DNA from: Pseudomonas arsenicoxydans | GTDB lineage: Bacteria > Pseudomonadota > Gammaproteobacteria > Pseudomonadales > Pseudomonadaceae | Direction of reading: 5' to 3' | Length of the DNA: 64,000 nt | Assembly (NCBI RefSeq): GCF_006438915.1 | Contig: NZ_RCZE01000004.1 | Coordinates: 1 to 64,000 of the forward strand | Part shown: piece by piece, positions 3,141 to 33,633 of the stretch | How positions within the stretch are numbered: the first letter of the stretch is position 1 | How the letters are laid out: the number at the start of each line of letters is the position of its first letter | Notes under the pieces: model-generated | Database searches by the model: none | The model's input: the letters and a program-made list of their open reading frames with translations, nothing else | What the model was told of the DNA's origin: nothing | Position numbers and translations under genes: made by a program

Positions 3141-6100
3141 TTAGCGTGTGCTACCACTAACATTTGTTACTGCATATTCAAAGCCTTCGTTTTCACAGAC
3201 CAGGGGAATGATACGTTCTAGTGCATGCAACAGCGAGCCATCATAGGGAAGAGGTTCTGTCGGATACTCTTCCCACTTGAAACACAATTTAACCAGCGGC
3301 GCCAATACTTCTGAGCGAGCCCAGAACATTGTTCCCACCGGAAAATTAATATTTTTAGGCAACGGGTCAAGTGACAAACGTAAAGCCAATTCTTGAGCAG
3401 GTTTTTCGTTTGCATCCCAACCCACAACATTCGAATCATCTGGAAAAATCAATCCAATTTTCGGATTCAAGGACATTTGACCAACGATGACGTCAGCCAT
3501 ATTTCCAACTGCTCCGCCCAGTAAATTATCCAAGAGGAAGTTGAACCATTTTCTACCAACCTCCAAGTCTTTTACATCAACAGTTTTCTTCGTGTGAATA
3601 TGCCCAACAATTTGATAGTTTTGTACAAGCTCTGAACCGAAAGCAGTCAGCAAGGGACCGATGTCTCTGCCTCTATTTGGAACAACTTCAACACAGACAG
3701 CCTCTACGTTACTAGCCTTTAGTAGAGCCAGGATTTCAAGCTTAGCTTCTAACGACGGAGCACTGATAAATAGATCTGGCCTTACCTTGTTTGCCTTCAG
3801 TCTTTGCAAAATTTCCGGGAGTAAATCCGGATAATAGACGTGAATATGAAGCGCTATCTTTGTGTCATCCAACACCTCGCCAACTATTGTTTTTGGCGTC
3901 AACACTGGACGCAGCCATGATCCCTGAGGTTTGCCTGCCTGAAGAAAATGAGCGTACGCATCAATCTCAAGATGGTCGATATTATTCTGTTCAAGGTAGA
4001 TACCCGGATGAAAGCCTGGAAAAGGCTTTTTTCTACCTATTCCACGCACCCAAGAACGCATATACATATAGAGCAAATCGATATTACTAAAGTTCACCCG
4101 ATGAGAATCTCTGAGAAACTCAAAATCGGTCAAATCAGAGTCTTTCACAATCAAAAAATCTGCATGTTCCTGCTTCGTTCTCGCCTCTACAACATGTGCA
4201 ATCCGCTCCAGACTTTCAATATATTTATTCATATCGAAATAATCTTGAGATTTAGAACCACTCTGCCTACCGACGTCAGCTCTCAATTTTTGAGAGTTCG
4301 CTAACGAAAGGACTTTTTCTGCCATTGATACAGTATCCAGATACGGCGCAACACATTCTGCAGCAAGACCGCACGAAGATAAAAAGTCAGCTATACCCGT
4401 AGTTTTATCAAAACACACAATCGGTATGCCGTGGCTGAGTGCATCAATGGCGACATTGGGCAATGGATCCAGTCGCGACGTCAGCAAGAAAATATCGGAG
4501 TTTTCATAAACCGTATCAATTGCGGAGGTTTCGGAAATGAAGAATACATTTTTCTCGAGATTCGCTCTTGCTATCTGATCTGCCAAATAGACAGAGTAGC
4601 CTATGTCGTGATCCGGATTGTAGCCTTGTCCAACCCAGACAAAACGACAGTTTTCACCACCTGGTGCATTGACCACCCTTGCAGCACATTCAATGAAAAG
4701 GTCTACTCCCTTTCTCAGCTGCACATAACCGGCTCCAAGGATTACGACCAGCCCCTCAGCACTGCCATTAGGTCGCATTGCATTTACGATGCGTTGTTGC
4801 TCCCTCTCAATTTCGGAAGAACTAAGGTTCTCAGGAGGTAAAAGGCAGCGACCTTGGGGAAGAATATGCGAATGCCCTTTGTTTAGCTCCGCGTACTCCG
4901 CCTGAGCACTTTTCAATGTAATGTCTGTTGAAAATATCAGCTCACCTGACCAAAAAAGCGCTTCTCGAAATGCATTGCGAGGTCGAGTATTAGCTGCGAA
5001 TTCATGCACTAAACTTATGCAAGGCACAAATCGCTCTGCAAGAGCAGGCAGCACGTATCTGGCTTCGATGCTATTCGCTATTGCGCAATCTATATTGAAC
5101 CGCTCAAGTATCTGTTTTACAACCGCTTTGGTAATGACCGAGTTACTTTTTATCCCCGCGATGGGCCCAATTACAGCAGCACCTGAAGCTAAAAATGCAT
5201 CCTCTAAATCCCCCCCACCAAGAAGAAGGGCGATAACGTTGTACTTCTTAGACAGGTTTATAATTATATTGAGACTTAATATAGGTGCGCCTGTCCTGGA
5301 GGCTTCGTGACTGACAACCAAAAACGTTTTGCGTAATGGATCAATAGACTCGGTCGCACCCCGAACTTCAAGAGTCGGCATGGCTCCCATGCGCCCTTCC
5401 CTTCTACCTGTAGATCGGTAATGCTTCTCAGGATCTACTCCGGAGCTTTTTACATCAGGGTAAAGAGATAGATATAAATCAGCATCAAAGATGACCTCGT
5501 CTTCGATTTCAATAGAAAGCAGACGCCCTTCAATGGCTCCATTCACAAGGAAGTGCTCTTCTGGAGAAACCCCGATAGCAGCCACATCTGAGTTAGCATG
5601 TAAATATTTATTGTACTCAAAGCTAAAATGCTTTGAAAGCACACGTGCAAATGGGTGCTCAACTGCCCCCAAGAGCTTGCGCGCCGCTCGCATAGCTTTC
5701 CAAGGCCGGGAAGAAAATATAATTTTAAGACACTCGGCCAGAACTATAGTTAGCTGATGCTTACTATTCAGTAATACTTCGAACTGATGATGAGCTTCCA
5801 GACTTCGCTCATTCAATAAACGATTCTGTTGCCTCAAGGCAAGATTTTCATCTCGCTGCTTGACCAATTCACGTTTTAACTTCTCCCGTTCATTAAGTAC
5901 AGTAGAAACTTTCACTTCTAGCCCCTTCAGCCGCCCCTCAAGTCCATCAGAAAGCTCACTAAGTCTGGATTGTACGGCCTGAGCATCTTTTATCTGTAGG
6001 AGAAAGTCAGAGATCCTGGCGTGCCGACCTTTAATCATACTTATCCCTTTCAGCGCCACATCGAGTGCATCTTGACTCAATTCGGCTTTACCCTCAGGTA

Positions 6101-6851
6101 CGTCCAAAGGGTAGTTGAAAGCAGCAAAATCTTCAGCATACAAAAGCTTTATCAACTCCGCAGACCTTGGAGTAATAAAGCTTTCGGAATAAGGAATTAG
6201 ACTTTGGTTAGCCCGATTTGTCACAAACGGGGCAACAAACCCATCACCTATAATACCTTCAAGCTCTGCTTCCAGGCGCAAAGTATCTTCCAACTGCGAA
6301 ACAATATCGTACTTTATTAAGTCAGGCCGCAGCAAGGCTACTTGTGGTGTCCAATCCGAATCAGAAAAACTCGGTGCCTCAACCGCCAACAAATACTCAA
6401 GAAAACTTTCAAAAGCATTCGCGATATCAACGGTGCTCGCTATTTTATGACTATAAAACTCATGCTTTACATACCGCTCTATTTGCAATGGCTCACGAAG
6501 TAAAATATTTGCTTGCCAAGCAGAAAATATACGCTCGTAAGGATTACGAACCACCGCAAAACAAAAAACTCCATCAGTGTTAACTAGCTCACCCAACCGG
6601 GACTCGGGAAGACCAGTAACTGATGGAGCAACCAAATGAAAGGTGTCATGGATGGTTAACTCTGGCGTACTCTCTAGACTCTTTAGGTCTTTATTTATGG
6701 CAGGCACATAACCTTCAAGCTTAGCAAACCACCATTTTAATGAAGTGGAGCCTGCTTTCGGCGTGCACACATAAAAAATCTTATACTTTTCAGAGTAGCA
6801 TGAGCTATACCTCATCAACTCCACTTGACCTTTAGAAATAACGCCAAACAT
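3141..6851 (-). CDS. Giant fusion: sulfotransferase, coiled coil, GT4 glycosyltransferase, RgpF-like domain
   Basis: The frame runs to 6899. ATG at 6851 follows AAGGGCGGA and gives 1236 residues; residue numbers here use the longer 1252-residue frame. Residues 40-265 resemble sulfotransferase family 2: TPKAGSTSLKWW fits the 5'-phosphosulfate loop of PAPS enzymes and RNPYERIFSAW the 3'-phosphate site. Residues 290-375 form a heptad-rich coiled coil. Residues 425-505 hold two FDADLYLSLYPDV-type repeats. Residues 525-880 look like a GT4 glycosyltransferase with an E-rich C-terminal lobe. The last 240 residues resemble RgpF of rhamnan synthesis (NRGRDIGPLL, GHIHTKK). It is probably a cytoplasmic multi-enzyme for polymer assembly; sulfation is inferred from the motifs. 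A terminator follows directly. Its sister gene is at 28657-33633. Confidence 0.85.
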   Translation of the reverse strand: MFGVISKGQVELMRYSSCYSEKYKIFYVCTPKAGSTSLKWWFAKLEGYVPAINKDLKSLESTPELTIHDTFHLVAPSVTGLPESRLGELVNTDGVFCFAVVRNPYERIFSAWQANILLREPLQIERYVKHEFYSHKIASTVDIANAFESFLEYLLAVEAPSFSDSDWTPQVALLRPDLIKYDIVSQLEDTLRLEAELEGIIGDGFVAPFVTNRANQSLIPYSESFITPRSAELIKLLYAEDFAAFNYPLDVPEGKAELSQDALDVALKGISMIKGRHARISDFLLQIKDAQAVQSRLSELSDGLEGRLKGLEVKVSTVLNEREKLKRELVKQRDENLALRQQNRLLNERSLEAHHQFEVLLNSKHQLTIVLAECLKIIFSSRPWKAMRAARKLLGAVEHPFARVLSKHFSFEYNKYLHANSDVAAIGVSPEEHFLVNGAIEGRLLSIEIEDEVIFDADLYLSLYPDVKSSGVDPEKHYRSTGRREGRMGAMPTLEVRGATESIDPLRKTFLVVSHEASRTGAPILSLNIIINLSKKYNVIALLLGGGDLEDAFLASGAAVIGPIAGIKSNSVITKAVVKQILERFNIDCAIANSIEARYVLPALAERFVPCISLVHEFAANTRPRNAFREALFWSGELIFSTDITLKSAQAEYAELNKGHSHILPQGRCLLPPENLSSSEIEREQQRIVNAMRPNGSAEGLVVILGAGYVQLRKGVDLFIECAARVVNAPGGENCRFVWVGQGYNPDHDIGYSVYLADQIARANLEKNVFFISETSAIDTVYENSDIFLLTSRLDPLPNVAIDALSHGIPIVCFDKTTGIADFLSSCGLAAECVAPYLDTVSMAEKVLSLANSQKLRADVGRQSGSKSQDYFDMNKYIESLERIAHVVEARTKQEHADFLIVKDSDLTDFEFLRDSHRVNFSNIDLLYMYMRSWVRGIGRKKPFPGFHPGIYLEQNNIDHLEIDAYAHFLQAGKPQGSWLRPVLTPKTIVGEVLDDTKIALHIHVYYPDLLPEILQRLKANKVRPDLFISAPSLEAKLEILALLKASNVEAVCVEVVPNRGRDIGPLLTAFGSELVQNYQIVGHIHTKKTVDVKDLEVGRKWFNFLLDNLLGGAVGNMADVIVGQMSLNPKIGLIFPDDSNVVGWDANEKPAQELALRLSLDPLPKNINFPVGTMFWARSEVLAPLVKLCFKWEEYPTEPLPYDGSLLHALERIIPLVCENEGFEYAVTNVSGSTR

Positions 6852-6935
6852 AACACATCCGCCCTTTATCACATAATTTTTTATATAACAACAAACCATC
6901 TACAGCACTTTAATAATAGGAAACTGACACATGAG

Positions 6936-7181
6936 CTAACAACACCCAGAAAAATCCCTAGTTAATGCTGGAGAGAATCTAAACATCAAAGCATCCATGA
7001 CGCGATAAAACTTATTCGGCTGATAGGTCGACCATAGCCCGCGACCACCAAAAAAAACGCATGATTGTAGATTCATAACGCCAGAGAAATCAACGGCGGA
7101 CCGCTGTTCGGCCGAGGCCATTCTAATCAATTTATGATCTTCAGGGCTTTGCAGCCCCGCCACTTCAAACCCGAATAACAT
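6936..7181 (-). pseudogene. Unidentified C-terminal remnant
   Basis: An 81-codon frame starts at ATG 7181 and ends just upstream of the giant gene. Its sequence (for example MLFGFEVAGLQSPEDHKLIR and LWSTYQPNKFYRVMDAL) looks protein-like but I do not recognise it. It begins exactly where the IS5-type transposase remnant ends, so it may be the surviving 3' end of a gene interrupted by that element. No ribosome-binding site is convincing. Confidence 0.3.
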
Positions 7182-7189
7182 TTTAATTA

Positions 7190-7517
7190 GCGGCCCGAAA
7201 TAAAACGGTGGAGTCACCAAGAATCGGATGGCCCAGCGTGAAACGAGTGAACTGGCGTAGCAAGGCAATTTCATGGAACACACCTTCCATAGTCGGATCA
7301 CTTCAAGAAAAACCAGTTTTGCAGCAATTGAATAGGCAGTACGATCTCTTGAGGATACAACTTACGACCATCACCCACCTTTGGGACAACACGGTTCAAT
7401 CAGCACCACTAATCCGCTCCAGAGCACCACTCCCGCCATTTCAGCCAGAAAGTGTTCACGCCGGGGCTGCTTGCGCTTGCTGGCGTATTCGAAGTCGGAA
7501 CAGCTCATCTGGTTCAT
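7190..7517 (-). pseudogene. IS5-family transposase, decayed N-terminal part
   Basis: Reading from ATG 7517 on the minus strand gives MNQMSCSDFEYASKRKQPRR then REHFLAEM, LVVLIEPCCPK, QLLQNW, HEIALLRQF and LGHPILGDSTVLFR across three frames. This order matches the N-terminal third of IS5-group transposases (FxxAEYAxKRKQTRRExFLxEM, LIxLIEPxYPK, LxQNWFGYSD, RxFxxL). Several stops and frameshifts are present, and the catalytic DDE part is missing. Confidence 0.65.
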
Positions 7518-7525
7518 GCAGGGCT

Positions 7526-7550
7526 CAGGTCAGGTCAGGTAGGGTCAGGT
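7526..7550. repeat. Short tandem CAGGT repeat
   Basis: Five 5-base units (four CAGGT, one AGGGT) lie head to tail, directly upstream of the IS5-type transposase remnant start. No function is apparent. They may be slippage at an old element end. Confidence 0.5.
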
Positions 7551-8549: not shown

Positions 8550-8580
8550 AAGTGACGCTCCATGACATTGATAAGGAAGT

Positions 8581-8599
8581 GCAGCTTTTCCGAAGCTGC
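8581..8599. terminator. Hairpin between wbpM and comEA remnant
   Basis: GCAGCTT and AAGCTGC flank a 5-base spacer, forming a stable short hairpin 64 bp past the wbpM stop. No T-run follows on either strand, so it may be a processing or REP-like hairpin rather than a true terminator. Confidence 0.3.
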
Positions 8600-8662: not shown

Positions 8663-10657
8663 TCAGGGTTCGAGGCGACGCTGCTGGTAAATCAAGTCGA
8701 CGATTTCACCATCCGGGGCGTAGCCACTGACAGTGTCACGCAGAAGTTGGCGAACCCGCGAATAATCATCCCTCTCAACGGCAGACAGCAACTCCATCAA
8801 CTTGCCTTTAAGCGCTTCCCAAGGCAAATGATCTTCCTTGGCGCTCATGATCATCGGATGCCGGGTAGCCGACACGTTATCGCCGATCAGCAACTCTTCG
8901 TAAAGTTTTTCCCCGGGACGCAGTCCAGTGAACTCAATGGCAATATCGCCGTGCGGGTTTTTCTCCGAGCGAATGCTCAGGCCAGACAGGTGAATCATCT
9001 TCTCTGCCAGCTCGACTATCTTGACCGGCTCGCCCATGTCCAGCACAAACACATCACCGCCCTGCCCCATGGAGCCGGCCTGTATTACCAGCTGTGCCGC
9101 CTCGGGAATAGTCATAAAGTAACGGGTAATCTTCGGATGGGTAACCGTCAAAGGCCCACCCGACTTGATCTGGCTGTGGAAAAGCGGAATAACCGATCCC
9201 GATGATCCCAACACATTACCGAACCGCACCATGGTGAAACGGGTCTTGTTGACCCGGGACACATTGGACTTGCCCCCGAATAACACCGGCGCCAACTCAC
9301 GACTGAGGGCCTGCAAGGTCAATTCGGCCAACCGCTTGGTGCTGCCCATGACATTGGTCGGGCGTACGGCCTTATCGGTCGAGATCAGCACAAAGTTTGC
9401 AACACCCGCCTCTAATGCAGCCTGAGCGGTATTGAGTGTCCCGATCACATTGTTCAGCACACCTTCGGCAATGTTGTGCTCAACCATCGGCACGTGCTTA
9501 TAGGCCGCCGCGTGATAAACCGTGTCCACACTCCAGGTCTTCATTACATCCAGAAGTTTGTGGGGGTGACGAATAGACCCCAGTATCGGCAACAACCGGA
9601 CAGGCAACGACTCACGAGCAATACGATGCTCGAGCTCGGACATAATGCTGTAGAGATTGAATTCACTATGATCGAACAACAATAGCGTGGTTGGCCCCAG
9701 GGAGAAAATCTGACGACAGAGTTCGGAACCGATCGAACCGCCCGCCCCCGTTACCAAAACCGTCTTGCCCTTGACGCATCGAGTCAACAAATCAGGCTGG
9801 GCCGGCACGGAATCCCGCCCCAACAGGTCAGCAATGTCGACTTCCTGAATGTCGTCCACCTTGACCCGACCACTGGCCAGGTCAGTGAAATTCGGAACAC
9901 TGCGCACATGGAGCGGGAAGTCCTCCAGAAAATTGAGAATCTCCCTACGCCGCGCACGAGTCGAAGACGGCAACGCCAGAAGGATTTCCTGAGCACCCGT
10001 CACGTCGATCATCTGCTGAATATGCTTGGGCTTAAAGACCTGCAACCCAGCAATCGAGCGATCCGCGATAGAGGAATCGTCATCGACAAACGCCACAGGA
10101 CGCATCACGCGCCCCATGCGCAACGCTGCAACCAACTGGTTGCCCGCGACGCCAGCTCCATAAATGGCGACCTTGGTCAAACCATCGTCTCGATTGACAA
10201 ACGGTACATGCTGCGCAGCGGTGAACCAATCCCCCATGAAATACTGACGCATGCACAGGCGCAAACCGCCAATGATTACCAGGCTTAGCCACCAATAATT
10301 GAAGATGATAGAGCGCGGCACCACGACGTCGTGATTGCTGTACCAGTAGACCACCACAGCGAGAATCAGCGAGGACAGACTGACTGCCTTGACGATGGCA
10401 ATCAGTGCATCATTACCGAAGTAGCGCATGACAGCGCGGTACATGCCAAAGCGTACGAAAAGGGGAATGGCGATAGTCGAGGCACTGACGAAGAGCCAGA
10501 AATGGACCTTTAGCGGATTGTATACGTCGTCAATACCGAGGCGGACAATAAAGGCCAGCCACAAAGCAACCCACACCAAAACCACATCGGTGGCGACCTG
10601 TAGCAGTCTTTTTTGCCTACGAGGCAAACCCAGCAAAATTATCCGTACTTTATCCAT
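8663..10657 (-). CDS. wbpM: UDP-N-acetylglucosamine 4,6-dehydratase, membrane-anchored (WbpM/CapD family)
   Basis: This 664-residue protein has four to five membrane helices in the first 150 residues. A first Rossmann site (GAGVAGNQL, about 167-175) is followed by the catalytic Rossmann domain (TGAGGSIGSE, about 303-312). The catalytic motif is NVMGSTK, with Met in place of the usual Tyr, as described for WbpM. The enzyme removes water across C4-C6 of UDP-GlcNAc, giving the 4-keto-6-deoxy intermediate for UDP-QuiNAc or UDP-FucNAc. It marks one end of the O-specific-antigen locus in pseudomonads. The WbpV/WbpK-like reductase and WbpL at 36-38 kb are its natural partners. The gene appears intact although both neighbours on the stop side are decayed. 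Confidence 0.95.
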   Translation of the reverse strand: MDKVRIILLGLPRRQKRLLQVATDVVLVWVALWLAFIVRLGIDDVYNPLKVHFWLFVSASTIAIPLFVRFGMYRAVMRYFGNDALIAIVKAVSLSSLILAVVVYWYSNHDVVVPRSIIFNYWWLSLVIIGGLRLCMRQYFMGDWFTAAQHVPFVNRDDGLTKVAIYGAGVAGNQLVAALRMGRVMRPVAFVDDDSSIADRSIAGLQVFKPKHIQQMIDVTGAQEILLALPSSTRARRREILNFLEDFPLHVRSVPNFTDLASGRVKVDDIQEVDIADLLGRDSVPAQPDLLTRCVKGKTVLVTGAGGSIGSELCRQIFSLGPTTLLLFDHSEFNLYSIMSELEHRIARESLPVRLLPILGSIRHPHKLLDVMKTWSVDTVYHAAAYKHVPMVEHNIAEGVLNNVIGTLNTAQAALEAGVANFVLISTDKAVRPTNVMGSTKRLAELTLQALSRELAPVLFGGKSNVSRVNKTRFTMVRFGNVLGSSGSVIPLFHSQIKSGGPLTVTHPKITRYFMTIPEAAQLVIQAGSMGQGGDVFVLDMGEPVKIVELAEKMIHLSGLSIRSEKNPHGDIAIEFTGLRPGEKLYEELLIGDNVSATRHPMIMSAKEDHLPWEALKGKLMELLSAVERDDYSRVRQLLRDTVSGYAPDGEIVDLIYQQRRLEP

Positions 10658-10948: not shown

Positions 10949-11329
10949 GATCAGACGCCGTGACTTAACCCAAAACGCGTTTCTGGAGTGAGGGAAATTT
11001 CTTGGGAGTTCACCTCTCAGCGTGGGATGATAGAAAAAGCGCGAATCACCTTACAGATGATTTAACTTACGAGGTCTAGCACACCCGACTCGCTCGACAC
11101 AAGCACTTCTTTTTTGAGCGAATAGCTGAAGCTTGGCATTATAGCGAGCGCGCGCCATACGAAATAGCTGCAGACTTTACGCCCCCTCCGTGCAACAGGG
11201 GGGAGGCACTCTACGTGGAGTACATTCCGCGATCGTAAAAAGCTGGAAACCAGATGGGATGGAAAAAGTGACACTCCCCCCTCCTACAAGATTACAATCA
11301 CTGACTGTTTTGACAACCCGGTGTTTCGA
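10949..11329. other. Non-coding interval between wbpM and wzm
   Basis: The two genes are divergent, so promoters for both should lie in 10658-11329. Apart from the IS66 right end I see no gene here, and no -35/-10 pair convincing enough to report. Confidence 0.4.
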
Positions 11330-12130
11330 ATGCTAAACAACTCAATTACCGCCGCCATGGCAGATATAGCGACGGCTGTAAAGCGCTATTCTCTGGTAGG
11401 CATGCTCGGATGGCAGGATGTACGTCAACGGTATAGGCGCTCGGCTGTCGGACCGTTTTGGCTAACCATCAGCATGGGCGTTATGATTGGTACTATTGGC
11501 CTCGTATTTGGCCAAATATTTAACTCCCCCATGAAAGAATTCCTGCCATTTCTTGCAGCAGGTATGATTTTGTGGAGTTTTATTTCTACCTGCGTGTTAG
11601 AGGGCTGCTCCAGCCTCATCGCCGCAGAAAGCATTATCAAACAACTCCCCATCCCACTATTCGTGCATATTTTACGCACAATATGGCGCAATACTTTGAT
11701 CCTCGCGCACAACATCGTCATTTTCCCGCTTGTGCTGCTGGCTGTTCAAAAACCATTGGGGCTGGAAGCACTGTGGAGTATCCCGGGCTTTGCACTGCTT
11801 GTTCTCAATCTGGCATGGATTAGCTTGATATTGAGCCTTTTATGCGCTCGATATCGCGACCTCCCGCAGATCATTGCGAGCGTCTTGCAAATAGCCTTTT
11901 ATTTGACGCCAATCATGTGGCTTCCAAGCCTGCTACCTGGACGAGCCGGCACCTATTTGCTGGATTTGAACCCCATCTATCATCTCTTACAAATCGTCAG
12001 GGCCCCATTGCTCGGACAGGATGTGAGCACTGTTAGCTGGTGCGTGGCCGGGGGCATGGCTCTGTTTGGCTGGTGCATAGCGATCATCATCTATGGCCTC
12101 TATAAACGTCGCATTGCTTATTGGCTCTAA
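11330..12130 (+). CDS. wzm: O-antigen/polysaccharide ABC exporter, permease subunit
   Basis: This 266-residue integral membrane protein of the ABC-2 type has about six hydrophobic segments. Its N-terminus carries GMLGWQDVRQRYRRSAVGPF, the LGWxDVxxRYRRSxLGPFW signature of Wzm/KpsM-like permeases. With Wzt it moves the undecaprenyl-linked glycan across the inner membrane. GTG 11321 lies in the same frame but ATG 11330 is the more usual start; neither has a strong ribosome site. wzt follows after 13 bp. Its presence shows that the glycan is probably made by the ABC-dependent route, not the Wzx/Wzy route. Confidence 0.9.
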   Translation: MLNNSITAAMADIATAVKRYSLVGMLGWQDVRQRYRRSAVGPFWLTISMGVMIGTIGLVFGQIFNSPMKEFLPFLAAGMILWSFISTCVLEGCSSLIAAESIIKQLPIPLFVHILRTIWRNTLILAHNIVIFPLVLLAVQKPLGLEALWSIPGFALLVLNLAWISLILSLLCARYRDLPQIIASVLQIAFYLTPIMWLPSLLPGRAGTYLLDLNPIYHLLQIVRAPLLGQDVSTVSWCVAGGMALFGWCIAIIIYGLYKRRIAYWL

Positions 12131-12143
12131 GAAGAAAACTATT

Positions 12144-12887
12144 ATGGCTTGTATTGAATTTAATAACGCATGCGTTGATTTCCCAATCTATAACGCAAGT
12201 GCTCGGTCCCTGAAAAAGCGACTGATTCAAGTCGCTACAGGCGGCAAAATCAGTTCCAACGAGCAAGGCCGAGTGATCGTCAGGGCACTGGAAGACCTGA
12301 CTTTTTCCCTCAATGACGGAGACCGCGTTGGATTGCTCGGTCATAACGGAGCGGGCAAAAGTACATTACTCAGACTGCTGAGCGGTGTATACGCCCCCTC
12401 CGCTGGCACCGCCAGTATCAGCGGCGAAGTCGCTTCCCTCATTGATATTTCATTAGGGATAGACCCGGAGGCATCCGGCAGGGAAAACATCTTCATGCGC
12501 GGCATCCTGCTTGGGATGACAAAAAGTGATATTGCAGAAAAACTCGAAGAGATTATTGAGTTTTCAGAACTGGGTGACTTCATTGACATGCCGGTACGCA
12601 CATACTCTTCCGGTATGCACTTGCGCTTGGCCTTTGCGGTATCGACGACCATCAGACCTGAAATATTGATCATGGACGAATGGCTGTCGGTAGGGGACGA
12701 AGGCTTCAAGCACAAAGCAGAAGCTCGGATGAACGAACTGGTCGAAGCCACCAGCATTTTGGTGATAGCCAGCCACTCCCGCGACCTGGTACTGCATACA
12801 TGCAATCGGGTCATTTGGCTGGAGCACGGTAAAATAAAAATGGACTCAGACCCCGAAACAGTTACCCGAGCTTATTTTGGCCACTAA
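12144..12887 (+). CDS. wzt: O-antigen/polysaccharide ABC exporter, ATPase subunit (short form)
   Basis: ATG 12144 follows AAGAAGAAAA and gives 247 residues. Walker A (GHNGAGKST) is at 66-74. The signature YSSGMHLRLAFA and Walker B ILIMDEWLSVGDEGF lie in the second half. The protein ends soon after the H-loop region (VIASHSRDLV). The C-terminal beta-sandwich that lets long Wzt proteins recognise a capped non-reducing end is absent. Short Wzt proteins of this size are known from systems in which export does not depend on end-capping. The gene is coupled to wzm, with no partner downstream. Confidence 0.9.
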   Translation: MACIEFNNACVDFPIYNASARSLKKRLIQVATGGKISSNEQGRVIVRALEDLTFSLNDGDRVGLLGHNGAGKSTLLRLLSGVYAPSAGTASISGEVASLIDISLGIDPEASGRENIFMRGILLGMTKSDIAEKLEEIIEFSELGDFIDMPVRTYSSGMHLRLAFAVSTTIRPEILIMDEWLSVGDEGFKHKAEARMNELVEATSILVIASHSRDLVLHTCNRVIWLEHGKIKMDSDPETVTRAYFGH

Positions 12888-13191: not shown

Positions 13192-13759
13192 CGCAAGGCT
13201 CGGTGATCCGGCATTTTTAGCTATTCTTTGCGCTGAAAAAAGCTGTAGGGTTTGTCATTTCTACTGGTGACGCATTCAATTAAAGTTGTTCGGAGTTTCC
13301 CTAGGGGACAGAGGGGCAATCGATGATTCTCGACGGTTATTGACGCGCCTCACTCTTTGCGGGGCATCCAATCAGGTTGCGCAAATGAAGTATGAGATGC
13401 GCTATGACCCTGTGAACACAGCATGTCCCGCCAATCAATTCTCCATGAAATAATGTGCTATTCGTGGTATTTTCGCCGGCAAATGAAAGCCTGCAGGCCT
13501 TTTAGGGGACTGGTGAGCAATGGAACTGAAGACCAACGTAAGACGAATCAACGTTTGTTTTACTCGTCAGCGACAGCAGAATTAACGAACTTTGATTCGA
13601 GATACGCGTTTTATGGCACTGATTTTCGGGTGTTGGTGACCTTTCCTGGTGATAGCGGAAACGGTTTCATAAAACGGTCGTTTTTCGAAACTATCCAGAC
13701 GTTGCAGGGGGTTGGGAGCAGCGACTGAGCTGAAGTGCACTTTCTGTTCCGTTGCTCCA

Positions 13760-13770
13760 CCCCCCCCCCC
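13760..13770. repeat. Poly-C tract (11 C) upstream of the UbiA-HAD gene
   Basis: Eleven consecutive C lie 72 bp before the GTG start of the next gene. Tracts of this length are prone to slippage. A TTG codon at 13752 opens a frame through the tract into the gene, but the strong ribosome site at 13842 makes the tract more likely to be untranslated. Confidence 0.6.
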
Positions 13771-13841
13771 TTTTAGTCACCTTTGCTAAGGTCTCCCGTT
13801 GTTTTCCTGTGTTAGCACCCCATGGTCAGGGAAGAATTCTT

Positions 13842-15284
13842 GTGATTGTCGATATTGCACCGCCCGCTCCTCCGCTCATTGTCGATCTCGACGGCACCCT
13901 GCTGCGCTCCGATCTGCTGCTGGAAACAGGTATGGCTTTTGTTCGAAATAAGCCATTGAGCCTATTCCAACCCTTTATTTGGTTGACCAAAGGAAAGGTG
14001 GCTTTAAAGGAAGGCCTCGCCCATGCCACCCATATTGATGTCAGTGTCCTGCCTTTCGATCCTGCGGTCATTGAACTGATTGAAGTCGAGCGGCGTAACG
14101 GTCGGACGGTAGTGCTGGCGACAGCCAGCCATTACAGCCTGGCCGAGCGTATTGCTGAACATCTCCAATTGTTTGACCAGGTGCTAGCTTCTGATAGCGA
14201 GCGAAACCTGTCGGCCCATCGTAAACGCGATCTGTTGGTCGAGCACTTTGGTGAGCGGGGCTTTGATTACGTGGGTAACTCTCATGACGACGTCCCAGTT
14301 TGGGCGGCTGCCCGGAAGGCTTATGTGGTCAATCCGGAATCCGGTGTTGAGCGTGACGCTCGGGCACAGGGCAATGTCGAACAGGTGATTTACTCCAATC
14401 CTTCCAGGCTGAAGGACTGGTTGAAGGCGTTGCGGCTGCACCAGTGGATGAAGAATGCGCTGATTTTCGTACCTCTAATGGCGGCGCATCAACTGACCAA
14501 CCCCATGCTCCTATGGCAGGGAGTATTAGCCTTTCTGTTTTTTGGGCTATGTGCCTCTAGCGTCTATCTACTTAATGACTTGCTGGATCTCGCCGATGAC
14601 CGGCATCATCACTCCAAACGGCATCGTCCATTTGCCGCTGGACGATTGTCGATCAAATCCGGGCTACAGCTCTTTCCCATATTATTGGTTGGCGCTTTTT
14701 CAGGGGCTGCATGGCTTCTGCCTTGGGAGTTTTCCGGAACCCTCATTGCATACTACATATTAACTCTCGCCTATTCGCTGTCATTGAAACGACAGATGGC
14801 TATCGATGTGATCGCCCTGGCTGCGCTTTATACCCTGCGAATCATAGCTGGCGCGGCAGCATTCAATTTGGAACTGACATTCTGGATACTGGCGTTCTCG
14901 ACGTTCATGTTCCTGAGCCTCGCACTCGTTAAGCGCTACGCAGAACTGCGCGAAGCAAGACGCAAGGGCGATACCGGGAAAACCCGTGGGCGAGGCTACT
15001 ATCCCGCCGACCTGGAAATGATTTCCTCGCTGGGCGCGTCTTCCGGTTATCTAGCGGTAATGGTATTGGCTCTGTACATCCATGATCAGGCTACAACCGG
15101 GCTTTATGCTCACCCGCAAGTGATCTGGCTAGCCTGCCCGCTGCTTTTGTTCTGGATCACACGAGTATGGATGCTCACACATCGCGGGCAAATGCATGAT
15201 GACCCTGTAGTGTTCGCCATCCGCGACCGCAGCAGTCTCGTGGTTGGCGCTTTGTTTGGACTGGTGTTCTGGGTGGCAACATGA
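13842..15284 (+). CDS. HAD phosphatase-UbiA fusion: probable polyprenyl-phosphate phosphoribosyltransferase
   Basis: GTG 13842 follows GGGAAG at good spacing and gives 480 residues. An upstream TTG start at 13752 would add 30 residues across the poly-C run. Residues 1-190 are HAD-like, with VDLDGTLLRSD near the N-terminus and GNSHDDVPVW as motif IV. Residues 195-480 are a UbiA membrane prenyltransferase. They contain NDLLDLADD with SKRHRPFAAG just after, and later RQMAIDVIALAALYTLRIIAG, one residue beyond what I quote in short form elsewhere. These match decaprenyl-phosphate phosphoribosyltransferases, which join phosphoribosyl pyrophosphate to polyprenyl phosphate. The HAD part could remove the 5'-phosphate (inference). 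It overlaps the DprE1-like gene by ATGA. Confidence 0.85.
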   Translation: MIVDIAPPAPPLIVDLDGTLLRSDLLLETGMAFVRNKPLSLFQPFIWLTKGKVALKEGLAHATHIDVSVLPFDPAVIELIEVERRNGRTVVLATASHYSLAERIAEHLQLFDQVLASDSERNLSAHRKRDLLVEHFGERGFDYVGNSHDDVPVWAAARKAYVVNPESGVERDARAQGNVEQVIYSNPSRLKDWLKALRLHQWMKNALIFVPLMAAHQLTNPMLLWQGVLAFLFFGLCASSVYLLNDLLDLADDRHHHSKRHRPFAAGRLSIKSGLQLFPILLVGAFSGAAWLLPWEFSGTLIAYYILTLAYSLSLKRQMAIDVIALAALYTLRIIAGAAAFNLELTFWILAFSTFMFLSLALVKRYAELREARRKGDTGKTRGRGYYPADLEMISSLGASSGYLAVMVLALYIHDQATTGLYAHPQVIWLACPLLLFWITRVWMLTHRGQMHDDPVVFAIRDRSSLVVGALFGLVFWVAT

Positions 15285-17331: not shown

Positions 17332-17363
17332 ATTTTTTTATCTTAAAGTTCTGGAAGTTTTTT

Positions 17364-19739: not shown

Positions 19740-20005
19740 ATAATTCAATTATTTTACCTGGCGGAGCATGTTTGGTTGGCCAAAATCTAGTCGTTCGTCT
19801 CAAGACCAAGGGCGACACTAATATCGTCGTACTCGACAAGCATCTCCCAAACATGGCTGTACTTCGACAGGTAGAATCAGAAATTACTGTCGAGTATCCT
19901 GACCTGGCAGAGTCTGACGGCAGGCAAAGACACATGGCTGGAGGGGATGTCGTCGTCATGCTACAGGCGCAGATTGGTGGCAATGACTATGTATCGCGCT
20001 TCTGA
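19736..20005 (+). pseudogene. Truncated duplicate of the NAD-dependent epimerase
   Basis: ATG 19736 overlaps the preceding stop. The 89-residue product begins IILPGGACLVGQNLVVRL and includes [14 protein letters not shown]. It parallels the first 100 residues of the intact epimerase at 21991 ([32 protein letters not shown]). Similarity ends at 20005, and the catalytic YxxxK region is absent. About ten residues are also missing after EYPDLAE. The dinucleotide loop has Cys for Gly. It marks the end of an older copy of a GT-C plus epimerase module. Confidence 0.85.
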
Positions 20006-20062
20006 TCATTAGGAACGTGCCGCAATTCATATTCAAATTTTTGCACAGACTGGGGTAGACCC

Positions 20063-25298: not shown

Positions 25299-25321
25299 TA
25301 TTTTCTCTTACGGCGCCACTG

Positions 25322-27419: not shown

Positions 27420-28388
27420 TTATTCCGGATTTTCCAATAACCAAGCGGCAAAGCGCTCCAGCCCATGATCGAAACTCACGGCAGGACCCCACCCTAAAGA
27501 CTGTTTGGCACGCTCTATATCCAGGATACTGACAGGCACGTCAAACCCACGACCCGACACGTAATGACGACTTACATCTCGCCCCGTGACCCGCTCGATA
27601 ACATCAAGTACTTCATTGAGACTATGTCCGCGCCCTGAACCGATGTTGAACACGTGTTCTTCACCGGATCGCGCCAACGATGCCAACAGCGCTTGCACCA
27701 CATCAGAGACGTGTATGTAGTCACGCACTACCGTGCCATCACCCCAAATCTCAACCGTCTCGCCACGCAGGGCTTTACCAAGAAATACGGCAACCGCGCC
27801 TTGGCTGGCATAGGTGCGCTGCCCCTCACCAAACGGGTTTGCAAGACGTAGGACAGTATAGTCAAGGCCGTGTAAGCGATGAAAAAGCGCCAGATACTTC
27901 TCAATCGCCAACTTGGCAATTCCATAGGAACAGGCCGGGTCAGTCGCATGGGTTTCTGGAATAGGTACTTGTGTAGGGTCTCCATACACCGTGCCACCAG
28001 AGGAGATAAAAATAATCTTCCTCAGGCCGGACTTCACCGCGAGGTTTAGCAGACGGATGGTCGCAACGACATTGCTCTCCACATCGAAGACGGGATCAGC
28101 ATTTGAAGACTTGGGGAGTGTAGTAGACACCAGGTGATAGCAAACATCGCAACCTTCCAATGCCTTGGCGACTTCGGCCTCACTGGTGAAGTCTCCTTCG
28201 CAAAGCTCGAAATTAGGATGATTGAAGTGGGATTCACCCAACGGCACCACATTGGGACGATCGAAACAGCGCACAAAATGCCCCTGATCGAGCAATGCGT
28301 CTATCAAATGGGTGCCTATGAAACCACGCCCCCCCAACACCAGGGACCGTTTAACAGGATTAGGGGAAGTGTTCTCGGAATTATTCAA
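27420..28388 (-). CDS. NAD-dependent sugar epimerase/dehydratase (GalE-like extended SDR)
   Basis: TTG 28388 follows a near-perfect ribosome site (GGAGGG, six bases before). It gives 322 residues; a frame extending to 28484 lacks such a signal. The protein has LVLGGRGFIGTHLIDALL at the N-terminus, the FISSGGTVYGDP strand, and YGIAK as the YxxxK pair. It resembles UDP-glucose 4-epimerase-type enzymes. It is probably the last gene of the minus-strand O-antigen block and lies 268 bp after the giant fusion gene. The nucleotide sugar it acts on is not evident. Confidence 0.85.
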   Translation of the reverse strand: MNNSENTSPNPVKRSLVLGGRGFIGTHLIDALLDQGHFVRCFDRPNVVPLGESHFNHPNFELCEGDFTSEAEVAKALEGCDVCYHLVSTTLPKSSNADPVFDVESNVVATIRLLNLAVKSGLRKIIFISSGGTVYGDPTQVPIPETHATDPACSYGIAKLAIEKYLALFHRLHGLDYTVLRLANPFGEGQRTYASQGAVAVFLGKALRGETVEIWGDGTVVRDYIHVSDVVQALLASLARSGEEHVFNIGSGRGHSLNEVLDVIERVTGRDVSRHYVSGRGFDVPVSILDIERAKQSLGWGPAVSFDHGLERFAAWLLENPE

Positions 28389-28656
28389 CGTTGCCCTCCA
28401 GCGCTTGATATGGTTGAAACTGCTGCCTTGTGCAGCAGCAGACAAGGCGTGCGCGACCTGCCCCATCCTTGGCAACCATTGCAACGACCTACACTTTATT
28501 ATTTACAGGAACACATTCTGACGGCTAATGATACGTCAAGAGAGGCGGCTTACCAAATTGCCGGAGACACCCGTCTCGCACTCAGTACAGGCTTGGCAAT
28601 CAGCCAGACCTGCCCCTATGAGCCCTCCCTTTAACGCTAGCTGTCCTGCCGTCCTG

Positions 28657-31600
28657 CTACAGGTCTTGGACAGCTATGCCGGAGCCTTCGGCCTTCGCCG
28701 ACTCTGCCCTGGTCTGCTGAATGTCACGCTCGAATAAACGAAGATATTGAGAGGCAACGGCGTCAATTCGATATCGACTGGAAACGTCTTTTACCAAGCC
28801 GACGGCTTCCTGGTATTTCCGTTCATCTGTCGCGAACGCTGCAATCACGCTGGCCGTGCTCTCGATTGGGACGACCCAATCTTCCAGCCCGATAATCTCC
28901 CCGGCAACGCCGCTCTCTATCGTCAACATGTTTTTGATGTCGCCTACGTCTGTGGCAATGTATGGCTTGCCGGCAAACAGACAATCGACAATGGTCAGAG
29001 GGAAACTCTCAGACCTGAAGGTCGACAACATGATGCCCATGTCCGCGGCAGCATAATGACCTACGGAGTTATCACTAAAGCCAGCCAGGTAAACAAAGTC
29101 CGGCGCACCTGCTTGACAGTACTCATCGTACACCAGGCCATTACCGACCAATATAATACGGATGTCCCGACCGGAAAGTGATCGCGCACGTTCTACCGCC
29201 TGGATAGCTTCGCCCCAGCCTTTATCGGGAATTGCCCGACTGACACAACACAATACAAAAGCATCTTCCGGTATGCCCATCTGCACGCGCGAGATTGGAA
29301 CGATTTCCGGTGGCTGCAACCCGTTTGGAACCTTGACGAAACGGGGAGAAGACTTGTCGTACAGTGAGATGTCTGAGAAAGGAACAAGATTCTTCTCAGC
29401 GGTGTAGACCCATGTACTGACACCTTTGTCAGCAATGCGCAACTGTTCATCCGTCACTCCATTGCCATGTTCAATCATCCCGTGCAGAGCAGCCACGTGG
29501 GCGCCAAGCTCGGAAAAAACATCCGGGACATCGACCGGGTACTTCTGAACGTACCACTGGTGGCTATTAAGTGCTTCAATTCCGAAATCATGAATGATCT
29601 CTTTCACTGATTCGATATTCGACGTCTCGATCACCGGCACGTCGTTTCTCAGCATTTTTCGAACACCGTCTTCGCGTTTTGGTATCCCGGCGCTAAACAA
29701 GGAGACGGAAATACCTTGGCGCTTAAACTCGTTTGCCAGTCTAATCGGAAGAATTTCGGCTCCGCCCGGATAGAAGCCGATGGTCGAAACCATCACGTTC
29801 GGCAGTCGATCAGCCCTCGCACGAACAATCGAATCATGGTCGTACCAGCGTAAAAACTCTTCTGCGGAGCCCCCGACGTAGTGGTCATACAACTTCTTGC
29901 TGGCTTCCTCGCAAGCCTCAAGCACCGACATCGGAACATTGTAGAGGGACTGGACCGTCCTGTTCGCCACCCCGAGCTCGCGATAAAAGACCTCTCTGCG
30001 ATAAGTGGAGTTGGCCGTACTTGCATAATGCCGACGGAAAAAGTTTGTACCCTCAGTGGAGTAAGCAATCTTTCCGCCGCGCAGGATGTGCAAATAGAAG
30101 ACCCAATCACCCGCAACTTTCATTGATAGCCACGACGGATCATCCAACAGCGGCATATCAACGGGACGCTTGAAAATCACGCCACTGGCATTGGGTATTG
30201 TATTTTTAATACCCAACGCCGAGCGCACTTCGTTATGCGCCGTGCTGACATAGGAACCGGCCCATTTATTCGCACACTCCAGATCACTTACATAGTTAAG
30301 GAACTGGTCCGGCATAACGACTTCGTCCGTGGTTACGAACTCACATTTCGAGTACGCAAGCATGACCGCTTCGTCATCAAAACAACTAACTAGCGCCTCC
30401 AGGAAACGCTCATCACAGTAATCATCGCTTTCAGCGACCCATACCAGGTCGCCTGTGGCCGCCTTGATCCCCTTAGCCCACTGATGAAAAACGCCGCCAG
30501 AATTCGTCTCATTGAACAACAAGCGCGTTACATCGGGGTACTTTTCCGCATAATCAGTTAACACCGAACGGCTGTCATCAGTCGAACAGTCATCCATCAG
30601 GATGACTTCTATATTCTTGTAAGTCTGCCCATAAATACTATCCAGCCGACGAGCGAGATAGCTCTCGTGATTATAATTTGGAACAATTACCGAAATTTTC
30701 GGCATAACGACACTGGAGTCAATATCCAGCAGAGCGCGTGTTGTTTCGTTCAACCGACCAAAACCGGTGGTACTGTCTGGCTCAACGTAAAGTCCTTCCT
30801 GCCAATTGTTCCAGGCATTCACGAACAGTAGACGGCGATCCTCGGGGAGCGCCTTTCTCGCGCCCCTGATCGCCGCGTCAAGCCAACGCCCATAGTCACG
30901 AATGTGAAAGCGCGAATAAACCAGAGGAGAATATTGTTTAATCGCAGTTTCATCACGCCCTAATGAAATAGCGTGGAAAACCGGAGTAGCGCGAAGATGT
31001 GCCTTCTGTGCGCGCACGATTCCTTGCGAAGCAATAAGGTTATACGGAACAGTATCTATACCATTCTTGTTTTGCGGTGGAAATACGCCAGTTTCGCCCG
31101 GCACAGGATCTGCAGAAAGATCAAGCACTGCGTCACACAAACCATCCAGGTCCTGCGCCAACTCTTCCGAACCCGCAAAACCAAACTGAGCAATCAAGTA
31201 CACGCCGTCACACAGTTCATTCAATCGCTCACGGAGCTTGCGAATTGAAGCAAGTATGTCTTCGTCATACTCATTGAGCTTAACCACGATGACGGGGCGC
31301 TCACCAACCTGAACACATCGCTTATCAGCTAGAACTGCAACAACAGGCGTAATCAAGTTGTTTGATAGACCGTCCTGATGCAAATCTATTTGAATGCAGA
31401 AATTAAAGTCGATTTCCGTATGGGCAAGAAAGGTATCCAGAGGCTGTGGCGACACTTGCGCAACCGAATCTGCACTCAGCTTGAAACAAAAGCCGAAAAA
31501 GCCATGACTCTTGGCACTGAGTGCCTGCTGGGTGAGCACACTCCCGTCCAACGAATCATACAACCCAAGCGTTTTATCAGGGCGTGATCGCTGCGGATTA

Positions 31601-33633
31601 CCCTTGGAAGCGAATCTGGCGCTACGCAACGCCTCCCAGTCAGGCGACACATAGAACGCAAGTAACTTGATGTCGCTGTTCACTTCACCAAAACAGATGT
31701 CGTTTTCGTGATTAATGAGTGCGTCCGGTACCGCTATTCTATGCTCCGCCGAGCCAGTGACAATGTAATGCCAAAGCGGGTTGAGACCAATGTGTTGAAT
31801 GTCTTTGTAAAGTGCGAGGTAGGCGCGCGTATCAAAGTCCATGGACGGATTTCTGCCTTCGCGCCAGCCCTGTTCACAGTAGTGCCTGAGCGGATCTACG
31901 GAGACCTGCTCTACATCGCTGTACATCGCAAGGTAGTACTTCTCGTCGAACAGTCCTGACTTTTTGACGGCTTCGATCTGAGCCTCAAGCACAGCATTGA
32001 GTACCGGTATCGGTGTATATTCTCCATACGGCTTGAAAACCGCATTACGCCCGACGGGACGACGCTTGACCGCCGTCGTCTCGGAACTGCGAGCTGGCAA
32101 TCTGATTGGACGACCTTCGAGCTGGCCGCATTGAATATAGTGAAGCAGCGGATGTACCTGAGCCTCGGCAACATCAGGGTTGGCCAACAGATAATCCGAA
32201 GGACTGAAAGCGGCGCAAGGATTGCGATTTTCTATCCAACCCTTAAGCATGTAGTGCTTGAGTGGGTCAGTGCCTTTTGCACGAACTTCTGCATTACTGG
32301 CCAGGTAATAATCCGGATCAAACAACCCGCTTTCTTGAATCTCACGAAGCGTATTTTCGTTATAAAGCTCTCGACGACGCCTTAACGAGTCAACAAATTT
32401 ACTCCATGTCAGCGTCCTGACGTTATGGACGGACTCTCGCATAAACCCCGTAACTATGCGCACAGGCAAGGTTAAACGCCAGGAATGCGAAAAGAGTAAC
32501 GCATTGAGTTCCTGCTGCGTCTTGAGCAGATCAGCCTTGAGACTAATACTCTCTTTTTCGTGATCAACCAAAACGGCTTTGAGGTCGACTAACTGCCTGT
32601 TGAGCACACCCACCGATTGCTCAAAACTTGCAATATGTCGGTCCCGCTTAACCAAAGAACCCATAAGCTCTTTTAACTGCGATTCACGTTCAAACAGGGT
32701 CGGATTCAATGACGCAATTCGCTGATTCAAATCCTCGATCTGTTGAGTCAAGTCTTGGATTTGAAGGGTGCGCGCATCTATTTTTTGCCGACTTTCCCGA
32801 ATCAGCCTGGCTGCGTCAAACGCGAGATCCAACTGCTCTACCGAAAACGCTTCTGTAGATTCTGGTATCTGCCGATCATACTCGAAGACATCAAAATCTT
32901 CGGCATATAACTCTTCAATCAAACTCGCACTTCGCTCCGTAATAAAAGCCGGAAGGAAGGGAATGACATTTTCACTTGGCGAAGGCTCTGCGAAAGGATC
33001 GGTGGCCTGCTCACCGAAGTGCTCCGATAATGCTTTATGGAGTCCAGAGGCGTTTTCAATTTTGACCAACAAGGAATAATTGATCAAATCCGGACGCAAT
33101 AGCGTGGCTTGAGGCGCCCAAAAATCCTTCTCAGGTGAAGATCCGCGATTGCTTGCGAGATACTCCAGAAACGCCTCAAAAGCCGAAGCAACATCCGCTA
33201 CGCTTTTTACTGGCTGCTGTAACAACTCAAACTTTGGATACAATGCGACCTGCTGTGGATCTTGCAACAGTATTTTCGACTGCCATGCAGAAAAGATACG
33301 CTTGTAAGGGTTTCGTACGGCGGCAAATCGAAAATATGTATCAGAGAGAAGGGATTCCAAAAGGTCGTCCATTTCGAGCCCGCTGACATGGGGCGCAACC
33401 TTGTGAAACTCGTGAACAATCTGATCAGAATTACTTCCCGCAGCCTCACCAACTGCACGCAAGGCCTGCGAAAAACCTTCCAGTGACGCAAACCACCACT
33501 TCAGGGAAGTACTCGCAACCTTGGGGGTACTAACGTATAAAATCTTGTACTTCTCGGAACGAAGGCTGTTCCACTTGAGATAGTCGAAGACTTTTTGTTT
33601 GTCCACTGATGACAAATCACTAATATTTAGCAT
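28657..33633 (-). CDS. Giant fusion: sulfotransferase, coiled coil, repeats, WbsX-like, GT2 and GT4 domains
   Basis: ATG 33633, or TTG 33642 closer to an AGGA, gives about 1660 residues. Residues 30-265 are a sulfotransferase-like domain (STPKVASTSLKWWF for the phosphosulfate loop, RNPYKRIFSAW for the 3'-phosphate site). Residues 285-395 are a coiled coil ending in HSWRLTLPVR. About 430-650 hold four FDxxYYLxxxxDV...DPLxHY repeats. A WbsX-like domain follows (KLLAFYVSPDW to FVNAWNNWQEGLYVEPD). A GT2 domain comes next (ISVIVPNYNHESYLARRLDS, WVAESDDYCDE). The last 370 residues form a GT4 domain (GFYPGGAEILPIRLANEF, FRSESFPLTIVDCLFAGKPY). It probably builds and sulfates part of the O-chain in the cytoplasm. 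It shares its first 400 residues' plan with the 3.1-6.9 kb gene. Confidence 0.88.
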   Translation of the reverse strand: MLNISDLSSVDKQKVFDYLKWNSLRSEKYKILYVSTPKVASTSLKWWFASLEGFSQALRAVGEAAGSNSDQIVHEFHKVAPHVSGLEMDDLLESLLSDTYFRFAAVRNPYKRIFSAWQSKILLQDPQQVALYPKFELLQQPVKSVADVASAFEAFLEYLASNRGSSPEKDFWAPQATLLRPDLINYSLLVKIENASGLHKALSEHFGEQATDPFAEPSPSENVIPFLPAFITERSASLIEELYAEDFDVFEYDRQIPESTEAFSVEQLDLAFDAARLIRESRQKIDARTLQIQDLTQQIEDLNQRIASLNPTLFERESQLKELMGSLVKRDRHIASFEQSVGVLNRQLVDLKAVLVDHEKESISLKADLLKTQQELNALLFSHSWRLTLPVRIVTGFMRESVHNVRTLTWSKFVDSLRRRRELYNENTLREIQESGLFDPDYYLASNAEVRAKGTDPLKHYMLKGWIENRNPCAAFSPSDYLLANPDVAEAQVHPLLHYIQCGQLEGRPIRLPARSSETTAVKRRPVGRNAVFKPYGEYTPIPVLNAVLEAQIEAVKKSGLFDEKYYLAMYSDVEQVSVDPLRHYCEQGWREGRNPSMDFDTRAYLALYKDIQHIGLNPLWHYIVTGSAEHRIAVPDALINHENDICFGEVNSDIKLLAFYVSPDWEALRSARFASKGNPQRSRPDKTLGLYDSLDGSVLTQQALSAKSHGFFGFCFKLSADSVAQVSPQPLDTFLAHTEIDFNFCIQIDLHQDGLSNNLITPVVAVLADKRCVQVGERPVIVVKLNEYDEDILASIRKLRERLNELCDGVYLIAQFGFAGSEELAQDLDGLCDAVLDLSADPVPGETGVFPPQNKNGIDTVPYNLIASQGIVRAQKAHLRATPVFHAISLGRDETAIKQYSPLVYSRFHIRDYGRWLDAAIRGARKALPEDRRLLFVNAWNNWQEGLYVEPDSTTGFGRLNETTRALLDIDSSVVMPKISVIVPNYNHESYLARRLDSIYGQTYKNIEVILMDDCSTDDSRSVLTDYAEKYPDVTRLLFNETNSGGVFHQWAKGIKAATGDLVWVAESDDYCDERFLEALVSCFDDEAVMLAYSKCEFVTTDEVVMPDQFLNYVSDLECANKWAGSYVSTAHNEVRSALGIKNTIPNASGVIFKRPVDMPLLDDPSWLSMKVAGDWVFYLHILRGGKIAYSTEGTNFFRRHYASTANSTYRREVFYRELGVANRTVQSLYNVPMSVLEACEEASKKLYDHYVGGSAEEFLRWYDHDSIVRARADRLPNVMVSTIGFYPGGAEILPIRLANEFKRQGISVSLFSAGIPKREDGVRKMLRNDVPVIETSNIESVKEIIHDFGIEALNSHQWYVQKYPVDVPDVFSELGAHVAALHGMIEHGNGVTDEQLRIADKGVSTWVYTAEKNLVPFSDISLYDKSSPRFVKVPNGLQPPEIVPISRVQMGIPEDAFVLCCVSRAIPDKGWGEAIQAVERARSLSGRDIRIILVGNGLVYDEYCQAGAPDFVYLAGFSDNSVGHYAAADMGIMLSTFRSESFPLTIVDCLFAGKPYIATDVGDIKNMLTIESGVAGEIIGLEDWVVPIESTASVIAAFATDERKYQEAVGLVKDVSSRYRIDAVASQYLRLFERDIQQTRAESAKAEGSGIAVQDL

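Follow-up and report, generated by a model that had tools for sequence, protein, structure and literature searches.

In the known terminators of O-chains exported by ATP-binding cassette (ABC) transporters, the enzyme that modifies the chain end sits at the distal end of a coiled coil and is coupled to a reader domain on the transporter ATPase Wzt, as described in the available portions of three papers (PMC11231755, PMC10629545, PMC3482155). Caps named for this export route in the accessible text of two of them are methyl, methylphosphate and 3-deoxy-D-manno-oct-2-ulosonic acid (Kdo), with pyruvate as a candidate (PMC11231755, PMC10629545); the excerpted text of the 2023 paper, which cites a 2019 census of terminators, contains no word starting with "sulf" (PMC10629545). 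No sulfotransferase serving as an O-chain terminator was found in the titles and abstract openings of the literature searched, most subscription journals being outside the scope of that search. Here we analysed a 64,000-nucleotide stretch of Pseudomonas arsenicoxydans (contig NZ_RCZE01000004.1, positions 1 to 64,000; the window), in which two giant genes, G1 and G2, encode a putative sulfotransferase head joined to glycosyltransferase tails. Judged by analogy, the best reading is of a sulfate cap that would be built like the known methyl and methylphosphate terminators. We assign a probability of about 0.65 to the full explanation, namely that G1 and G2 are laid out like O-chain terminators whose head is a sulfotransferase, and that the reader has been lost locally.

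Like WbdD of Escherichia coli O9a, a methyltransferase-kinase with a coiled-coil ruler described in the accessible part of one study (PMC3482155), G1 and G2 would place an end-modifying enzyme on a coiled coil in an ABC pathway. The likeness, which is one of layout alone, includes a Wzt reader in the head family at large, whereas the window is without an intact one; unlike WbdD, G1 and G2 have a sulfotransferase in place of the kinase and methyltransferase, and fused glycosyltransferases. A terminator head, coiled coil and polymerising glycosyltransferases in one polypeptide, as in G1 and G2, are found in ORF6 of Klebsiella pneumoniae O7 and WbbB of O12, whose caps are instead methylphosphate and Kdo according to the available part of PMC11231755; here too the tail modules are likened by layout alone.

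G1 (3141-6899) and G2 (28657-33642) are single open frames on the minus strand coding for 1252 and 1661 amino acids (aa), the latter from a TTG start as listed. Both had been called in the initial annotation, which did not state the strand and cut the 5' ends short by 48 (G1) and 9 (G2) bases, and the common head on diverging tails that it described was borne out: residues 27-511 of G1 match G2 with 37% identity (E 7.8e-73), and the tails carry different Pfam domains. In G1, a Sulfotransfer_2 head (PF03567; 6108-6797, residues 35-264; 59 bits) is followed by a proline-free coil region (5766-6032, residues 290-378), one long-form FDxxYYL...DPxxHY repeat found by pattern search (residue 471), and GT4 (4263-4775, residues 709-879) and RgpF (3183-3872, residues 1010-1239) domains. 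In G2, the head (PF03567; 32875-33567, residues 26-256; 72 bits, the cut-off being 22) precedes a predicted single helix (32491-32841, residues 268-384), a region of four such repeats (31723-32322; residues 441, 479, 565 and 603), and WbsX, GT2 and GT4 domains whose best stretches lie at 30748-31365 (residues 760-965), 30364-30693 (residues 984-1093) and 28894-29259 (residues 1462-1583). The coiled coil claimed for both proteins held for G2, where the helix was predicted with a local distance difference test score (pLDDT) mostly of 82-92 and its heptad signal was reached by 0/2000 shuffles; it did not hold as firmly for G1, where the heptad-band signal was weak (reached by 63/2000 shuffles, compared with 119/2000 for a non-coil control stretch). 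At E 0.001, no PF03567 matches beyond G1 and G2 were present in the 6.7-Mb genome.

These profile scores agree with the proposal that both heads are sulfotransferases of the type using 3'-phosphoadenosine 5'-phosphosulfate (PAPS), as do the two motifs on which it was based, TPKAGSTSLKWWF in G1 and TPKVASTSLKWWF in G2 for one, and RNPYERIFSAW (G1) and RNPYKRIFSAW (G2) for the other. The lysine, threonine, serine and tryptophan of the head motifs, which we take to include the PAPS-binding residues, are invariant in 121/121 heads, and the arginine of the first motif is present in 118; all are retained in both G1 and G2. When the predicted head structure was compared with solved structures, 50/50 rows among the matches listed were sulfotransferases, although the match was moderate, and heparan sulfate 2-O- and 6-O-sulfotransferases, listed with bound 3'-phosphoadenosine 5'-phosphate, appeared closest among them. 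A head profile run against the sequences of solved structures gave no useful match (best E 0.92).

The same head recurs on other glycosyltransferases, as a check proposed in the initial annotation had anticipated: among 7991 scored candidates there were 159 related proteins, and the tails among the 120 listed, taken from precomputed domains, include WbsX-GT2-GT4, GT4-RgpF, GT2-only and GT4 arrangements. Head patterns gave 46 loci, of which 42 (L008-L049) were used; four actinobacterial loci (L050-L053, 26-28% identity) were left out, and weak head matches in ten further genomes of the genus (E 2e-7 to 7e-4) were not counted. In 26/42 loci, the head gene is preceded on its own strand by a Wzt of 451-503 aa, the two being separated by no more than two genes. 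Environmental strains with such a reader-bearing locus include Pseudomonas frederiksbergensis 36C6 (L012) and P. nitroreducens (L042). The Wzt_C profile, which marks the reader, matched 26 of the 30 Wzt scanned, that of the window being the one named non-matcher; the three others are taken to be the short Wzt of L008, L032 and L035, the 26 matches are taken as 25 of the 26 loci plus an extra Wzt of L012, and the unscanned Wzt of L015 was counted as reader-bearing by its likeness to that of L014. In some loci (L016:9287-9970, L020:9289-9963, L026:9291-10004, L017, L023, L028, L033, L039), Wzt and head are separated by an accessory gene of about 190-237 aa, possibly a second cap enzyme. It is of several kinds, one of them GDSL/SGNH-like by eye, and its treatment as one family was rejected after ten were scanned: four matched Methyltransf_24 (L017, L023, L028, L039), one Sulfotransfer_4 (L033) and four nothing, while that of L016 had a GDSL match below threshold. 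Head proteins were also seen with no recognisable Wzt nearby, in L029 (9992-11134; 380 aa, with neighbours of respiratory type by eye) and in L044-L048, a group of large head proteins in Planctomycetota; the head may serve a different purpose in these, or the loci may be fragmented.

In other loci sampled from the genus the slot after the reader belongs to methyltransferases. Wzt_C is present in 180/398 Pseudomonas genomes, from which 20 methyl-type regions (L117-L136) were hand-picked; their Wzt frames measure 448-500 aa, and none has a sulfotransferase head match. The gene after Wzt_C is, or begins with, a methyltransferase in 20/20 (nine called by Pfam, eleven by 54-96% identity to those nine); it forms the head of a 713-1615-aa protein in 18 and is a separate gene of 315-329 aa in L128 and L129. 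In L126 and L134, WbsX and RgpF tail domains lie behind the methyltransferase head. These methyltransferases resemble the sulfotransferase head in the slot after Wzt_C and in the fused layout, but differ from it in chemistry and in reader class.

This difference in readers was seen in a tree of C-terminal Wzt parts, where 26 sulfo-type and 21 methyl-type rows fell on opposite sides of one branch (support 99; 100/99 with one extra row). The 21 methyl rows stand for 20 loci, as L135 has two Wzt, the second of which was labelled methyl by its locus, its next gene belonging to another transporter pair. Since 16/26 sulfo rows are from outside Pseudomonas and every methyl row is from that genus, the split is not a taxonomic one. 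The second Wzt of L012 (1665-3035, 456 aa) was not entered in the class counts, as the gene beside it bears neither type of head; that neighbour (3028-6771) encodes a 1247-aa protein whose N-terminus looks by eye like a hexapeptide-repeat acyltransferase, and it perhaps makes an acetyl cap. Five conserved basic residues were found in sulfo-type and one in methyl-type readers, a contrast not used as evidence, since the sulfo-type readers resemble one another more closely in general (62 vs 18 conserved columns). The sulfo-type profile A4 touched 2r5o at E 0.006, with an unrelated chain next at 0.008.

The sulfo-type reader also accompanies a second sulfotransferase-like head, with the motif HRSGTS, that was searched for by head and found in 24/398 genomes of the genus; 13/14 of these heads match Sulfotransfer_3 at E 0.01 (best 3.4e-11), L145 being below the cut-off. 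Among 29 places with this second family, a reader lay within the 1.5-kb flanks at 13 and was of sulfo type in 13/13, with no reader in those flanks at the other 16; in G020 the head is 2.3 kb from a sulfo-type reader. Conversely, a sulfo-reader profile matched 27/398 genomes, where the neighbour was a Sulfotransfer_2 head in 7 (the window fragment described below included), the second family in 14, Sulfotransfer_1 in 1 and DUF4915 in 5; no methyltransferase-headed giant was seen beside a sulfo-type reader in these 27. In a tree of 67 readers the methyl rows stayed on one side (100/98). The DUF4915 proteins after sulfo-type readers (L201:4465-5457, L203:3041-7147, L204:3086-5719, L205:3249-7445, L206:5408-9604) are PF16261 in 4/4 scanned, that of L206 being assigned by its look-alike N-terminus; APS kinase or CysNC is nearby in two, a separate methyltransferase-like gene stands between reader and DUF4915 gene in G027, and the family may belong to sulfate-cap chemistry. 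A SULT-like Sulfotransfer_1 protein (L207:3071-4117), which immediately follows a Wzt whose reader is a distant member of the sulfo type, may represent a third sulfotransferase family occupying the slot. G178 has a longer second-family head (L208:3249-6854).

The absence of PAPS-synthesis genes, which the initial annotation held against capping, is real within the window, where no adenosine 5'-phosphosulfate (APS) kinase was found, but does not hold for the family. APS kinase or CysNC occurs in the fetched DNA of 12 of the 42 sulfo loci, all reader-bearing (12/26 vs 0/16 readerless loci, p 0.001, a generous value given the near copies L013-L015, L033-L034, and L036 and L038, and some short readerless loci). 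Neither was found in the methyl-type loci (0/20), and 3/9 other sulfo-reader or second-family regions have one or the other. In the window strain's genome, APS kinase gave two matches, a full one lying in a 635-aa frame and a partial one. A full set of such genes is on a conjugative E. coli plasmid from river water (NZ_CP147085.1), where rml genes, wzm, a sulfo-type Wzt, the head, cysD, cysN, an SLC13 permease and cysC lie in one cluster; three of 72,556 plasmid records match the head, and this one alone does so over 80% of it. An RND-type permease gene (L209:5120-8269), which PLSDB predicts to be a resistance gene at 43.6% identity, precedes the plasmid cluster.

Taken with the known terminators, this arrangement would have the head transfer the sulfate of PAPS to an ABC-exported O-chain at its growing end, the chain itself likely being built by the tail glycosyltransferases, with the predicted coiled coil likely acting as a ruler that sets when the chain end reaches the head. 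In the family at large, the sulfo-type Wzt_C on the transporter would read the sulfated end, so that only finished chains are exported. In the window strain polymerisation by the tails probably continues and capping by the heads may do so too, but export would no longer hinge on the cap.

The window Wzt was correctly described as lacking an end-recognition domain. The ATPase (12093-12887, plus strand; 264 aa), next to the Pfam-identified permease gene wzm (11321-12130, plus strand), has no Wzt_C, and this objection to capping stands for the window, but not for the family, since it looks like a local loss. A profile scan found no Wzt_C match in the genome of the window strain, nor in any of the six genus-sample genomes of its clade. 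The nearest reader-bearing relatives of G2 are L012-L015 (head identity 57-62%), and in L012 and L013 wzm and a reader-bearing wzt lie between the preceding glycosyltransferase gene and the G2 homologue. In the window, a gap of about 0.4 kb (33643-34111) takes the place of the 3.2-kb wzm-wzt of relatives L012-L014, and no similarity to that stretch was found inside it. Before the gene that we take to be wbpM (8663-10657, minus strand; Polysacc_synt_2 by Pfam, between wzm/wzt and G1), L012 and L013 have SGNH-like, flavin adenine dinucleotide (FAD)-type (by eye) and APS kinase genes, and the window has the readerless wzm/wzt with a side-chain cassette. Directly upstream of G1, on the minus strand, a fragment of a sulfo-type reader remains (6906-7205); no ATPase part was found with it, 25/26 sulfo-type Wzt and 0/22 others match it, and the sulfo-reader profile finds it at 4e-17, with a stop within the frame. 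It is matched best by L040, L042 and L049, the loci whose tails are also most closely related to that of G1 (57-58%). A 121-aa frame overlapping it (6936-7301) was considered as a separate working reader and rejected, having no Pfam match and an in-frame stop in the match region. Comparison of these sequences suggests that the reader was lost in the window lineage rather than gained elsewhere, and we file G1 and G2 as terminator-like proteins that would lack the checkpoint, rather than as a working capped system. The Wzt of the K. pneumoniae O1/O2 type is likewise not known to carry a reader. Export in that type is not coupled to a cap and its transporter tolerates varied chains, according to the accessible text of PMC10629545; unlike it, the window retains two terminator-like proteins.

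The ratio of nonsynonymous to synonymous substitution rates (dN/dS) across the seven clade copies of G2 was 0.205 for the head, 0.220 for the coil, 0.154 for the repeats, 0.123 for WbsX, 0.068 for GT2 and 0.084 for GT4, with region limits set by hand; as low divergence inflates dN/dS, the contrast between head and tail is the point that counts. Reader-bearing pairs gave 0.06-0.11 for the head and 0.05-0.14 for the tail, two comparisons being saturated and one of the tails (L036, L038) overlapping the head. Head and tail differed in three clade pairs, treated as independent without a tree check (p 0.0008), compared with p 0.12 for the window against L110 alone and 0.47 and 0.89 for the two reader-bearing sets. 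The window clade is a natural experiment, in which the reader is gone and the head is under less constraint than the tail, a pattern unseen in the reader-bearing pairs tested. Truncated second-family heads stand before or on an intact coil-GT4 tail in the clade members G336 (L114:10231-10683) and G236 (L137:2407-5790), the tail proteins being about 35% alike. Remnants in G354 and G135 were dropped as G1 orthologues, as they match G1 at only 32-39%.

Such relaxation raises the question of whether the heads of the window strain are left-overs, with only the tail glycosyltransferases still at work. We consider this a serious contender, though somewhat doubtful. It would account for the missing genomic Wzt_C, the broken reader before G1, the absence of the relatives' wzm-wzt and APS kinase beside G2 and the relaxed head, and the truncated heads before intact tails in G236 and G336 offer a parallel. 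Yet in the clade the dN/dS of the head remains near 0.2 with the frame open in 7/7 copies, the G2 copies and G1 retain the lysine, threonine, histidine, arginine and serine of the motifs, and in recombinants a terminated chain can be exported by a transporter of the type not coupled to a cap, as reported in the available part of PMC10629545. A role of the fused head as a scaffold or a nucleotide-binding fold with no PAPS chemistry seems very improbable: the structural match is moderate and comes from a ligand-free model, but the conserved PAPS motif residues, the exclusively sulfotransferase structural matches listed and the PAPS-making genes in the clusters all speak against it.

Two further alternatives concern the family as a whole. 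The head could sulfate residues inside the repeat unit during polymerisation, with the neighbouring reader recognising a sulfated backbone; some bacterial capsular polysaccharides, in which sulfate lies within the repeat, provide a precedent. Two paper titles record sulfated capsular polysaccharides of bacteria (PMC11641403, PMC11766843), and the cluster APS kinase, once as cysD-cysN-cysC with a permease, fits a large sulfate demand as well as it does a single sulfate on each chain. We nevertheless regard internal sulfation as unlikely, because the head occupies the methyltransferase slot, on the distal end of a predicted coiled coil and with a reader gene just upstream, and known systems of such layout carry an end-group modification (PMC11231755 and PMC10629545, in the parts available). 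It is also improbable that the reader is blind to sulfate and that its class tracks the head only through co-inheritance of wzt with the gene beside it. The ATPase parts do split by head type as well (support 89), but their mean identity between classes is 0.593, against 0.167 for the readers, and sulfo-class readers turn up again next to a sulfotransferase family whose motifs differ and which was found by its head and not by its reader.

Against the sulfate-capping explanation as a whole weigh two points: 16/42 head loci have no reader in sight (six with a short Wzt, L008-L011, L032 and L035, and ten with none seen), which is the main loose end, and the reader, the defining part of a terminator, was tested for in the window strain and is absent. 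The window by itself does not reveal a cap; the family comparison can. The sulfate-capping ruler for O-chains put forward in the initial annotation is well supported for the family, through the reader-bearing Wzt, the methyltransferase slot, the reader class and the PAPS genes, and not for the strain; sulfate capping is likely for the former and uncertain for the latter.

G2 is flanked upstream by a gene for a protein with two GT2 stretches (34112-36319, minus strand) and downstream by one for a nicotinamide adenine dinucleotide (NAD)-dependent epimerase (27420-28484, minus strand), which also follows the G2 homologue in L008, L012 and L013. Genes at 39141-42036 (minus strand), presumably rmlA, rmlD and rmlB for dTDP-rhamnose, were named by reading the sequence, with no profile. 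On the plus strand, 13752-21994 encodes a UbiA-family protein (PRK08238; a UbiA/HAD fusion), a DprE1-like oxidase, an SDR-like protein and two large membrane proteins. The UbiA/DprE1-like set resembles pentofuranose side-chain systems in the available text of PMC11127046, and its likely function is that of a D-arabinofuranose side-chain cassette of the O-antigen.

Overall, it seems to us reasonably probable that sulfate is a further widespread cap for ABC-exported glycans, with its own reader class, a PAPS supply, at least two sulfotransferase families and a plasmid form, and that the window clade has escaped the checkpoint through loss of the reader, its fused polymerases being retained. If so, many bacterial surfaces would gain a charged end group, in the form of a sulfate cap that has its own matching reader. 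How caps are read would become testable by comparing reader classes of strongly differing sequence, and reader type would become a genome-level predictor of cap chemistry.
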